The notes below the pieces were generated by a model. That model searched no databases. It was given only the letters and a program-made list of their open reading frames with translations, and was not told the origin of the DNA. A program made the translations under genes and the position numbers. From the NCBI GenBank assembly GCA_040877935.1, contig JBBDNB010000012.1:1-64000 (forward strand): a stretch of 64,000 bases of DNA, written 5' to 3'. Origin of the DNA: Chitinophagales bacterium (lineage in GTDB: Bacteria; Bacteroidota; Bacteroidia; Chitinophagales; CAIOSU01). Positions 30,897-35,014 of this stretch are shown piece after piece; position 1 is the first letter of the stretch; every line of letters begins with the position of its first letter.

Positions 30897-31373
30897 CTAA
30901 TCCTCCGACAAGTCTGGGCTTATTTGCCTGTTGATACTTCTTTCCAAGGAAATAAATGTCTCAGTGCGATCAATCCCACTGAGCTCCTGTAGTTTATCGT
31001 GCAATACTGCTTTTAAGTGATTGGTATCACGACACAGTATTTTTACAAACATGCTGTAGTTGCCGGTCGTATAATGGCAGCTCACCACTTCGGGAATTTC
31101 TTTCATTCCTTTGAGCACTTCTTGGTAAAGCGAACTCTTTTTGAGGTAAACACCGATAAATGCAGTAATGTCAAATCCGAGTTTTTCTGGGTCAACAATT
31201 AATTGATTGCCACTAATCACCCCTGAATTTGTCATTTTTTTAAGCCTTACATGGACAGTTCCACTTGAAACGTGTATTTTTTTCGCAATTTCCGAATAAG
31301 GCATAAGCCCATTTTGCATCAGTAAATGTAAAATTTGCCGGTCAACATTATCAATTGTATAATTTTTCCCCAT
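30897..31373 (-). CDS. Lrp/AsnC family transcriptional regulator
   Basis: 158 residues. The N-terminal winged helix-turn-helix (DRQILHLLMQNGLMPYSEIA, then VSSGTVHVRLKKM) is followed by the RAM/AsnC ligand-binding domain (DITAFIGVYLK, VVSCHYTTGNYSMFVKILCR, GIDRTETFISLE). Members form octamers that sense amino acids and control amino-acid metabolism or transport. The promoter region it shares with the divergent tRNA-like RNA (31374-31500) raises the possibility of linked control. Confidence 0.93.
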   Translation of the reverse strand: MGKNYTIDNVDRQILHLLMQNGLMPYSEIAKKIHVSSGTVHVRLKKMTNSGVISGNQLIVDPEKLGFDITAFIGVYLKKSSLYQEVLKGMKEIPEVVSCHYTTGNYSMFVKILCRDTNHLKAVLHDKLQELSGIDRTETFISLERSINRQISPDLSED

Positions 31374-31458: not shown

Positions 31459-31489
31459 TTTCAATAATACACGCTATTTACTACATTTG
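31459..31489 (+). promoter_or_regulatory. Promoter for the tRNA-like RNA
   Basis: TACATTTG at 31482-31489 matches TAnnTTTG exactly, with TTTC (one mismatch to TTTG) at 31459-31462 and a 19-base spacer. Expected transcription start is about 31496, only a few bases before the acceptor stem, so the primary transcript would have almost no leader. Confidence 0.55.
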
Positions 31490-31500
31490 TGTTTAATAAT

Positions 31501-31616
31501 TGTTGGGTGATGAAACAGGCAGCCATGCCCTTCGGTCTCAGGGGTGAGGATTACGGGATAAACATCGGTTTACCGAAGCTAACCGCCTCATGAAGGTTCG
31601 AACCCTTCCCCAACAG
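31501..31616 (+). ncRNA. Class II tRNA-like RNA with non-canonical anticodon loop and oversized variable region
   Basis: Acceptor stem: TGTTGGG (31501-31507) pairs perfectly with CCCAACA (31609-31615), and base 31616 (G) is the discriminator; no CCA is encoded. The T arm abuts it with canonical geometry: GAAGG, loop TTCGAAC, CCTTC (31592-31608). D arm: ATG/CAT stem with an 11-base loop holding A14, G18G19 and A21. Anticodon arm: CCCTT/AGGGG with 7-base loop CGGTCTC, giving GTC at positions 34-36 but G instead of U at 33. The variable region (31545-31591) is about 47 bases, with stem TGAGG/CCTCA and inner hairpins, far longer than in Leu, Ser or Tyr tRNAs. It has its own promoter and terminator. 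It could be a decoding tRNA of unusual type, a tRNA mimic or a degenerate gene. The perfect stems argue against decay. Confidence 0.7.
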
Positions 31617-31640
31617 CGATATTTTGGTTCATTTTTCCCT

Positions 31641-31675
31641 GGGCTTCGAGGTTAACGCTTCGGAGCCCTTTTTTT
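31641..31675 (+). terminator. Intrinsic terminator after the tRNA-like RNA
   Basis: GGGCTTCGAG (31641-31650) pairs with TTCGGAGCCC (31659-31668), with two G-T pairs and an 8-base loop, and is followed by seven T residues. It begins 25 bases beyond the tRNA-like body, defining a transcript of roughly 175 nt. Confidence 0.85.
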
Positions 31676-32098: not shown

Positions 32099-35014
32099 AT
32101 GGAATACCAAAGTGCCGCTTTAGAGCAATTCAGTAAAGATTATTGGTCAAAAAACAATACCTACCGAGTAGAAAACAATACGGAAAAACCCAAGTATTAC
32201 GTACTCGATATGTTTCCCTATCCTTCGGGTTCCGGGCTGCACGTGGGGCATCCGCTGGGCTATATCGCCTCTGATATTTATGCGCGATACAAAAGGCAAA
32301 GTGGCTTTAATGTATTGCACCCGATGGGCTACGATGCTTTTGGTTTGCCTGCTGAACAATATGCCATTCAAACGGGTCAGCACCCGGCCAAGACAACGGA
32401 AGACAATATAGCGAGGTACAAAAAGCAGTTGGATTCCATTGGCTTTAGCTTTGATTGGGACAGAATGGTGAAAACCAGCGACCCCGAGTATTACAAATGG
32501 ACACAGTGGATTTTTATTCAATTGTTTAATTCGTGGTATGCAAAAGACGAAAACAAGGCACAGCCCATAGAAAAATTGAAACAGATTTTTGAATCGGAAG
32601 GAAACAAAGGGCTGAATGCGGCCACTGCCTGCGAGCAAACTTTTGGGGCAGATGAATGGAACAATTACAGCGAAAAACAACAGGCCGATATTTTAATGCA
32701 ATACCGTTTGGCATTTCAGGCGGAGGCCATGGTCAATTGGTGCCCGGCACTGGGAACGGTACTGGCGAATGACGAAGTAGTGAATGGTGTTTCCGAGCGG
32801 GGTGGACATCCGGTAATGCGCAAATCCATGCGACAGTGGTTTTTGAGGATTACTGCCTATACCGAGCGATTGCTGAATGGGCTGGATCAACTCGATTGGC
32901 CGGAAAGCCTGAAAGAGCAACAACGCAATTGGATCGGCCGCAGTGAAGGTGCACAGGCATTTTTTCATTTGGCAAATTCCAATGAAAAAATCGAGGTTTT
33001 CACTACTCGCCCCGATACCATTTTCGGGGTAACTTTTATGGTGCTGGCGCCCGAACATCCTTTGGTAAAGGAAATCACAAGGCCCGATCAGCAAAAGGAA
33101 GTGGGCGAATATTTGGAATACGTATCTTCCCGTTCAGATTTGGAACGCCAATCGGAAGTGAAAAAAGTAACCGGGGCTTTTACCGGGGCTTATGCGGTGC
33201 ATCCCTTTACCGATGAAAAAATCCCGGTGTGGATTGGCGAATACGTTTTGATGGGCTACGGCACCGGAGCCATAATGGCCGTGCCTTCCGATGATGACAG
33301 AGACAAAGCTTTTGCCGAGAAATTTGGAATAGAGATCATTCCTGTGGTCGATAAATCTGAATATCCCGATGCGAGCAGTGCGGATAAAGTGGGCAAAATT
33401 ATCCATTCTGATTTTTTGAACGGAATGGAAGTTCCCGCTGCCATTGACAAAGCCATTTCTGTTTTAGAGGAAAAAGCTTTGGGAGAAAGAAAAATAAATT
33501 ACCGCCTGAAAGATGCCAATTTCAGCCGCCAACGCTATTGGGGCGAACCTTTTCCGGTGTATTATGAAAATGGCATTGCCAAAACCCTGCCCGAATCGGA
33601 ATTGCCTTTGGAATTGCCCAAAATTGAAAACTACAAACCCACCGAAACGGGCGAACCGCCTTTGGGTCGGGCCAAAGATTGGACTTATGAAGGCCATCCG
33701 TTGGATTTGAACACCATGCCCGGTTATGCAGGTTCGAGCTGGTATTTTTTGCGCTATATGAATCCTGATTTTACAGAAGGCCCTGTAGATCCTAAAGCAG
33801 AGCAATATTGGAAACAAGTGGATTTTTATATTGGCGGGGCAGAACATGCCGTAGGCCATTTGATGTATGCCCGTTTTTGGCAAATGTTTTTGTATGATAT
33901 TGGCAAAGTCAGCATACAGGAGCCTTTTAAGAAACTGATCAATCAAGGGATGATTCAGGGGATGAGTGCTTTAATTAGGTCTATTAATACTGTATCAGGA
34001 GTTACTAGAGCAGGAAAAGATGTTGATTTGGTTTTAGCTTTTTCTCATGATGAGTTTAATGAAAATAAGAAGCCTGATATTGACAATGTGAAAAAATGGA
34101 TTGAAAGTAAAGGCTATGAAGTTGTTAACCTTTCATCTTCAGTGAAAATTGGCGATTATCCATTTGAGAGTATCTCTAGGGTTAGAGTTGATATTTGTTA
34201 TCTTAATTCAGATAGCTCTATTAATGATTTAGTATCATTTGAAGAATATTTGACTAAACTTCAAGGAAAAAAAGTAATCTGTATACCAAATTCAGAAGGC
34301 AAATTTATTTGTGAAAGAGAAGTAGAAAAAATGTCCAAGTCTAAGTTCAATGTGGTGAACCCGGACGATATCATTGAGCAATACGGAGCGGATGTGTTTC
34401 GCATGTACGAAATGTTTTTGGGGCCCATAGATGTACACAAACCCTGGAATACACAGGGCATAGATGGCGTGGCGAAGTTTATGCGCAAATTCTGGCGATT
34501 GATTTTTCAAGATGAAAAATTAATCCTTTCGGACGGGGAGGCTTCCGAGGAATCATTAAAAACACTGCACAAAACCATTAAGAAAGTGCGGGAAGATGTG
34601 GAGCGCTTGTCCTTCAATACTTGCGTGAGTGCCTTTATGGTTTGTGTGAACGAACTCAACGATCAAAACTGCCACAAGCGGGAAATATTGAAAACCCTAA
34701 GCCAACTGATAGCACCTTTTGCACCGCATACATCGGAATATTTGTGGCAGGAAGTTTTTGCGGAAAGCGGCTCGGTAACGGATGCGCCTTTTTCTGATTT
34801 TGAGGAAAAATACCTGAAAGAGGACAGCTACGCATATCCCATTAATATTGGCAAAAAGGTAAGGGCCAAAGTGGAATTGCCACTGGATATGGGCAAGGAG
34901 GCAGCCGAAAAAATTGTGCTCGAAAATCCGGATGTGCAAAAATGGACGGAAGGCAAAGAGATCAAGCGATTCGTATTTGTCCCCGGCAGGATTGTGAATA
35001 TTGTGGTTGGATAG
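32099..35014 (+). CDS. leuS: Leucyl-tRNA synthetase
   Basis: 971 residues, charging tRNA-Leu with leucine. The class I HIGH motif appears as HVGHPLGY near residue 48. The editing (CP1) domain carries TTRPDTIFGVTFMVLAPEHP and GYGTGAIMAVPSDDDRD, and EKMSKSKFNVVNPDDI holds KMSKS near 744. A leucine-specific domain normally precedes KMSKS. Here residues about 622-740 (nucleotides ~33960-34325) are strikingly AT-rich, use different codons from the flanks and match the usual Bacteroidota sequence only weakly, adding roughly 30 residues. The frame is intact, so the enzyme is probably functional. The segment looks like an imported or fast-evolving module. Transcribed from its own promoter next to the tRNA-like RNA. 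Confidence 0.95.
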   Translation: MEYQSAALEQFSKDYWSKNNTYRVENNTEKPKYYVLDMFPYPSGSGLHVGHPLGYIASDIYARYKRQSGFNVLHPMGYDAFGLPAEQYAIQTGQHPAKTTEDNIARYKKQLDSIGFSFDWDRMVKTSDPEYYKWTQWIFIQLFNSWYAKDENKAQPIEKLKQIFESEGNKGLNAATACEQTFGADEWNNYSEKQQADILMQYRLAFQAEAMVNWCPALGTVLANDEVVNGVSERGGHPVMRKSMRQWFLRITAYTERLLNGLDQLDWPESLKEQQRNWIGRSEGAQAFFHLANSNEKIEVFTTRPDTIFGVTFMVLAPEHPLVKEITRPDQQKEVGEYLEYVSSRSDLERQSEVKKVTGAFTGAYAVHPFTDEKIPVWIGEYVLMGYGTGAIMAVPSDDDRDKAFAEKFGIEIIPVVDKSEYPDASSADKVGKIIHSDFLNGMEVPAAIDKAISVLEEKALGERKINYRLKDANFSRQRYWGEPFPVYYENGIAKTLPESELPLELPKIENYKPTETGEPPLGRAKDWTYEGHPLDLNTMPGYAGSSWYFLRYMNPDFTEGPVDPKAEQYWKQVDFYIGGAEHAVGHLMYARFWQMFLYDIGKVSIQEPFKKLINQGMIQGMSALIRSINTVSGVTRAGKDVDLVLAFSHDEFNENKKPDIDNVKKWIESKGYEVVNLSSSVKIGDYPFESISRVRVDICYLNSDSSINDLVSFEEYLTKLQGKKVICIPNSEGKFICEREVEKMSKSKFNVVNPDDIIEQYGADVFRMYEMFLGPIDVHKPWNTQGIDGVAKFMRKFWRLIFQDEKLILSDGEASEESLKTLHKTIKKVREDVERLSFNTCVSAFMVCVNELNDQNCHKREILKTLSQLIAPFAPHTSEYLWQEVFAESGSVTDAPFSDFEEKYLKEDSYAYPINIGKKVRAKVELPLDMGKEAAEKIVLENPDVQKWTEGKEIKRFVFVPGRIVNIVVG

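Follow-up and report, generated by a model that had tools for sequence, protein, structure and literature searches.

A conserved tRNA-shaped RNA of Bacteroidota is a candidate aspartate carrier for asparagine synthesis

In Deinococcus, Thermus and Bdellovibrio, asparagine is synthesized on tRNA-Asn by the combined action of AspRS and GatCAB (PMC4206432), and a 2014 survey placed some Bacteroidetes among the genera that have AsnRS, GlnRS and GatCAB and lack an asparagine synthetase (PMC4206432). Bacterial aspartate identity resides in G73, G10, G34, U35, C36 and C38, and a G1-C72 pair has been reported to help bacterial AspRS (PMC9976931). Amidation of Asp-tRNA-Asn is determined by U1-A72 and prevented by G1-C72 (PMC9976931; PMC6523644), and the determinants of GluRS are G1-C72, U2-A71 and A37 (PMC6523644). 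The tRNA-like RNA described here shares with the pathway on tRNA-Asn its predicted enzymes, the U1-A72 determinant and the genomic setting, in which AsnRS and often GlnRS are present and AsnA and AsnB are absent. In the known pathway, a non-discriminating AspRS charges tRNA-Asn, which itself decodes, and the product passes straight into translation, whereas the carrier predicted here is an RNA of its own that apparently does not decode and that has an Asp-type loop, an extra domain and linkage to an AsnC-type regulator. Asparagine synthesis on tRNA-Asn being already known, the dedicated RNA appears to be the new element; in the open-licence part of the literature, which is the part searched, we found no earlier description of a tRNA-like RNA associated with AsnC or asparagine in Bacteroidetes.

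The RNA was found in a 64,000-nucleotide stretch of a Chitinophagales contig, which was analysed as a whole and is called the window below. The features of the locus are as follows.

30897 to 31373, minus strand: divergent Lrp/AsnC-family regulator, best match AsnC
31482 to 31489, plus strand: putative Bacteroidota-type -7 promoter box TACATTTG
31501 to 31616, plus strand: tRNA-like RNA; covariance model match of 125 bits, spanning 31501-31617
31501 to 31507, plus strand: acceptor stem 5' strand TGTTGGG (U1 and G2 conserved), partner 31609-31615
31510 to 31526, plus strand: D arm with a 3-bp stem and tRNA-Leu-like loop, GG at 31518-31519
31528 to 31544, plus strand: anticodon arm, loop CGGTCTC at 31533-31539 (G34, U35, C36, C38)
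31546 to 31589, plus strand: extended variable arm with stem 1 GAGG/CCTC, stem 2 CGG/CCG and an end hairpin
31592 to 31608, plus strand: T arm with TTCGAAC, stem 31592-31596/31604-31608
31609 to 31616, plus strand: acceptor stem 3' strand CCCAACA (A72) and discriminator G73 (31616)
31641 to 31675, plus strand: terminator-like hairpin followed by a T-run

The cloverleaf could be read directly from the sequence, and this reading confirmed the length of 116 nt (counting G73), the acceptor, T and anticodon stems, the TTCGAAC and CGGTCTC loops and the G73 proposed by an earlier sequence-only reading of this DNA. The 7-bp acceptor stem, starting with T1 at 31501, is perfect, the D stem consists of ATG/CAT in a tRNA-Leu-like layout, the anticodon stem is CCCTT/AGGGG, and the variable region of 47 bases contains a conserved internal loop, GATAAA (31557-31562) opposite CTAA (31579-31582). 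CCA is not encoded. ARAGORN called no tRNA in the window, and membership of a known Rfam family was rejected, as the Rfam covariance models gave no tRNA or other relevant match to the RNA up to E=10. Folded as a single sequence, the RNA is no more stable than its shuffles (z -0.36), so that its fold can be revealed and judged only by comparison between homologues. The sequence-only reading had proposed an own promoter, almost no leader and a strong terminator. In the window, TACATTTG, which we take to be a -7 box by the Bacteroidota consensus, implies a short leader, and the terminator-like hairpin with its T-run follows the RNA. Short leaders are not general, however, because a box 3-20 nt upstream was only modestly enriched, occurring at 9 of 156 loci. 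Terminator-like signals within 90 nt downstream were present at 97 of 156 cellular loci, compared with 2.9 in shuffles.

The sequence-only reading had allowed for a decaying pseudogene, which would be confined to this genome or altered at random in its stems; instead, covariance-model searches found homologues widely in Bacteroidota, and the stems covary. With the window RNA as query, blastn matched 21 of 61 related genomes, and some of the homologues lie in tandem pairs or triplets; loci L010, L078, L079 and L110 each carry three copies in tandem. In a first alignment of 15 sequences, the paired cells amount to 98.4%, and both partners have changed in 16 of 30 pairs (0 of 500 shuffles), a signal destroyed by sliding the structure along the alignment. 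A second alignment of 103 further distinct sequences, which leans towards the structure since it was fitted to the covariance model, contains double changes in 24 of 30 pairs. Covariation was seen in all seven stems, and the acceptor, D, anticodon and T stems of the cloverleaf are maintained by compensatory change. Searched against 395 genomes of the phylum, covariance model R1 separated the family (at least 85 bits and up to 140; 109-197 nt) from its next-best match, tRNA-Leu (~60 bits, 85 nt). The family extends over Chitinophagales, Cytophagales, Sphingobacteriales, Ignavibacteriales and ~78 viral contigs. Scanning named genomes for the pattern gave at least 120 stretches, and all 80 loci fetched from them had a confirmed copy; these include Chitinophaga, Hymenobacter, Pontibacter, Spirosoma, Dyadobacter, Cyclobacterium, Algoriphagus, Pedobacter, Mucilaginibacter, Saprospiraceae and an Ignavibacteriales MAG. 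Three stems make up the variable arm of the family, with a conserved internal loop of GAYAAA opposite CUAA and a freely variable end hairpin, and cellular copies range from 77 nt, without the variable region, to 197 nt; a variable region of ~47 bases is hence a property of the window copy and not a general trait. The 77-nt form, without a long variable arm and with the loop CTATCTC, lies at G127:C23:55337-55413 (L332), in a genome that has AsnA and no GlnRS. This conserved, phylum-wide family of tRNA-shaped RNAs has no Rfam entry and as a rule escapes ARAGORN.

We compared residues among 158 distinct cellular copies. All of them have U35, C36, C38 and G73, and the first pair is U1-A72 in 157 copies, as in GatCAB substrates, and not the G1-C72 of tRNA-Asp. 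G34 is present in 142; the remaining 16, mostly from relatives of Hymenobacter and Pontibacter, have A, C or U at this position. The bacterial aspartate set G34, U35, C36, C38 and G73 is complete in the former 142 and lacks G34 alone in the others, and G10 is not conserved. A decoding tRNA has U33 and a purine at position 37, but U33 was found in 124 of 158 copies, and position 37 is mostly a pyrimidine (U or C), rarely G and never A. Of the G33-GUC motif whose conservation had been put forward for checking, GUC stands with the above frequencies, and G33 proved to be a variant of the window copy. Among the tRNAs recovered from the window genome, an initial U occurs in tRNA-Asn and tRNA-Gln alone; tRNA-Asn has U1-A72 and G73, and tRNA-Asp is encoded by a separate gene ending ...CGGACC-G73, with C72 and A37. 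The RNA shares with tRNA-Asp(GUC) G73, G2-C71, U35, C36, C38 and usually G34; it differs in U1-A72, in the absence of A37, in a variable position 33, in a class II or larger variable arm and in its 3-bp Leu-like D stem. Its likeness to the class II tRNA-Leu lies in the layout of the D arm and the junction of variable arm and T stem, from which it departs by having G73 and not A73, U1-A72, another anticodon loop and a much longer, structured variable arm. Judged by these residues, the RNA looks to combine aspartate identity with the U1-A72 read by GatCAB, and to do so with an anticodon loop ill-suited to decoding. The comparison supports the suggestion of a non-decoding tRNA mimic with the aspartate identity set, which is key to the function proposed below, and makes a special Ser-acylated tRNA unlikely, given the invariant U35, C36 and C38 and an acceptor beginning U1-A72. 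The U1-A72 determinant, the AsnC linkage and the association with GatCAB and with a lack of asparagine synthetases had escaped the sequence-only reading.

A divergent Lrp/AsnC-family regulator adjoins the RNA in 84 of 127 fetched cellular loci; a few organisms among these are represented from two collections, and several loci are cut by contig ends. The window regulator matches AsnC (PRK11179), its best family, with 176 bits compared with 61 to Lrp; this score is under the curated AsnC cut-off of 227 bits, and we therefore call it AsnC-type only. AsnC controls asnA in E. coli. The arrangement here is similar in tying an AsnC-type regulator to asparagine supply, but the divergently oriented gene encodes an RNA and not a synthetase. 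Genes downstream of the RNA have no common theme across loci.

Among 98 sampled Bacteroidia, GatB was present in 38 of 38 genomes with the RNA and in 3 of 60 without it (Fisher 5e-24, a value that overstates independence because the genomes are phylogenetically clustered). Since the genomes are not statistically independent, contrasts within families carry the most weight. In f23, three genomes (G062, G177, G413) have retained the AsnC-type regulator (252-259 bits) and AsnB, and lack both the RNA and GatB; in f22, RNA, GatB and regulator are all absent from two genomes. G127 at first seemed to have GatB without the RNA, and the 77-nt form was then found there. The three GatB-positive Bacteroidia without the RNA are G097, which has no GlnRS, G209 and G256. 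The latter two (f25, Flavobacteriaceae-type) have a weaker GatB match (~1e-105) and none of AsnA, AsnB and the RNA, and have perhaps turned to tRNA-dependent asparagine synthesis independently. The family names attached to f-codes in this text derive from contig matches and lists of genomes.

Asparagine synthase B (AsnB) was found in 0 of 38 genomes with the RNA, compared with 34 of 42 Bacteroidia without it (two of the 34 just under the cut-off), and AsnA in 4 of 38 compared with 8 of 42. The gene pattern of the tRNA-dependent pathway, GatCAB without AsnA or AsnB, thus characterizes the RNA-containing genomes except the four with AsnA. AsnRS was present in all 40 genomes tested, and GlnRS in 16 of the 20 RNA-containing genomes first tested (16 of 21 counting G127), being absent from G000, G127, G220, G329 and G337. 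Where both enzymes are present, GatCAB is not required for charging tRNA-Gln or tRNA-Asn. The window genome is without GlnRS, and its GatCAB may serve Gln-tRNA formation. In the Hymenobacter-like f29, two of three genomes tested have AsnA, both without GlnRS; with the loss of G34 concentrated among Hymenobacter and Pontibacter relatives, this suggests that the role of the RNA may have shifted there. Many RNA-containing genomes also encode AsnB-like amidotransferases of 600-650 aa. The one examined scored best as an XrtA-type amidotransferase, below the cut-off; we assumed that these proteins do other work, though they might make asparagine.

We consider it probable that the RNA is a dedicated aspartate carrier for asparagine synthesis, charged by AspRS, amidated by GatCAB and controlled by the AsnC-type regulator. 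From the conserved residues and co-occurrences above we infer the following course of charging, amidation, release and regulation. AspRS would attach aspartate, recognising G34, U35, C36 and C38 together with G73. GatCAB would then amidate Asp-RNA to Asn-RNA, accepting it because of U1-A72, in contrast to tRNA-Asp with its G1-C72. In the least certain step, asparagine would be released, by an assumed hydrolysis of Asn-RNA, and feed the AsnRS of the host. The free position 33, the non-A residue at 37 and the large variable arm would exclude the RNA from decoding, since a GUC tRNA carrying asparagine would misread Asp codons. The divergent regulator probably sets expression of the RNA, as its conserved linkage suggests. 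Against the carrier reading count the 16 copies in which loss of G34 breaks one Asp determinant, the unconserved G10, the absence of the G1-C72 pair reported helpful to bacterial AspRS, the AsnA and AsnB-like genes described above, the possible service of GatCAB to Gln-tRNA in the window genome, and the phylogenetic clustering of the correlations. The chances are about even that the RNA is a non-decoding cofactor whose sole job is to hold aspartate for GatCAB, replacing asparagine synthetase in much of the phylum and carried by viruses. If so, asparagine in a large part of Bacteroidota would be made on a special-purpose RNA that no longer takes part in the genetic code. This would be a present-day case of amino-acid metabolism on RNA apart from decoding, and it would explain both the retention of GatCAB despite AsnRS and often GlnRS and life without asparagine synthetase.

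Several of the ~78 viral contigs carry the RNA inside arrays of 14-26 tRNAs, some with tmRNA; viruses with their own tRNA sets plausibly maintain asparagine supply by this copy. Five viral copies have A1-U72 in place of U1-A72. Among the viral loci L201-L280, some copies (for instance L202:2738-2907 and L233:4948-5118) are ~170 nt long with an additional D-loop hairpin, such as GTTGTCTCAGCATGAC, and others (L234, L280, L205, L246, L229, L213) have only 94-96 nt, being trimmed of the long variable arm. ARAGORN called the trimmed viral copies tested, and the G127 form, tRNA-Asp. The window RNA had no blastn match in phage and plasmid records; of three viral copies searched, one hit an unannotated 636-kb record of an uncultured phage, in which the copy lies at LR756504.1:133312-133457 (73% identity to a viral copy).

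Asparagine might instead be made on the ordinary tRNA-Asn by a relaxed AspRS and GatCAB, with the RNA acting as a regulator or sensor, for example of Asp/Asn charging for the AsnC-type circuit. Bdellovibrio, with a single non-discriminating AspRS and GatCAB, and the surveyed Bacteroidetes with AsnRS, GlnRS, GatCAB and no Asn synthetase (PMC4206432) offer precedents, the tRNA-Asn of the window likewise has U1-A72 and G73, and the RNA-regulator linkage is conserved. However, the RNA itself has everything required of the substrate, and G062, G177 and G413 lack it along with GatCAB yet keep the regulator. The AspRS anticodon domain, numbered by an E. coli row and compared as sequence only, has no feature separating Bacteroidia with the RNA from those without, which would fit an RNA tailored to ordinary AspRS. 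The histidine that we take to mark known non-discriminating enzymes is absent from AspRS of all RNA-containing Bacteroidia compared. We regard this alternative as unlikely. There is a small chance that, in C34 or U34 lineages without GlnRS at least, the RNA receives glutamate, which is then amidated to give Gln-RNA: U35 and C36 are common to Glu anticodons, C34 and U34 forms exist and five genomes lack GlnRS, but most copies have GUC, the RNA shows none of the GluRS determinants G1-C72, U2-A71 and A37, and it goes with an AsnC-like regulator and a lack of asparagine synthetase.

Non-decoding tRNAs serve cell-wall synthesis, a precedent for direct donation from Asn-RNA or Asp-RNA in a non-ribosomal ligation, e.g. 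to a peptide, lipid or cell-wall precursor. No linked ligase gene was seen, and the RNA tracks the absence of AsnA and AsnB, pointing to bulk asparagine supply, which leaves such a ligation very improbable. A translating tRNA for GAC/GAU, or a suppressor, could account for T and D loops of ordinary form, the GUC of most copies (142 of 158), the ARAGORN calls and the viral arrays; given any base at 34, a frequent non-U at 33, no A37 and an ordinary tRNA-Asp in the same genomes and arrays, it is highly improbable, and decoding was rejected on the anticodon-loop residues. Virtually no likelihood is left for a leuS regulator, as the sequence-only reading had also suggested, or a pseudogene. The leuS gene adjoins the window RNA and the D arm is tRNA-Leu-like, but the position upstream of leuS is not conserved across loci and its adjacency in the window is coincidental, which rules out leuS regulation of an RNA that has its own terminator, and covarying stems and distribution over many families rule out a pseudogene. 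The carrier reading thus remains the one we prefer.

Two further observations concern genes and genomes outside the family. G040 and G101 have none of AsnA, AsnB (NF006949), GatB and the RNA, G040 has no TIGR01536 match above the cut-off, and both are possible asparagine auxotrophs. LeuS of the window (32099-35014) contains an apparent insert of ~85 residues (RSINTVSGVTRAGKDVDLV...) shortly before the KMSKS motif.
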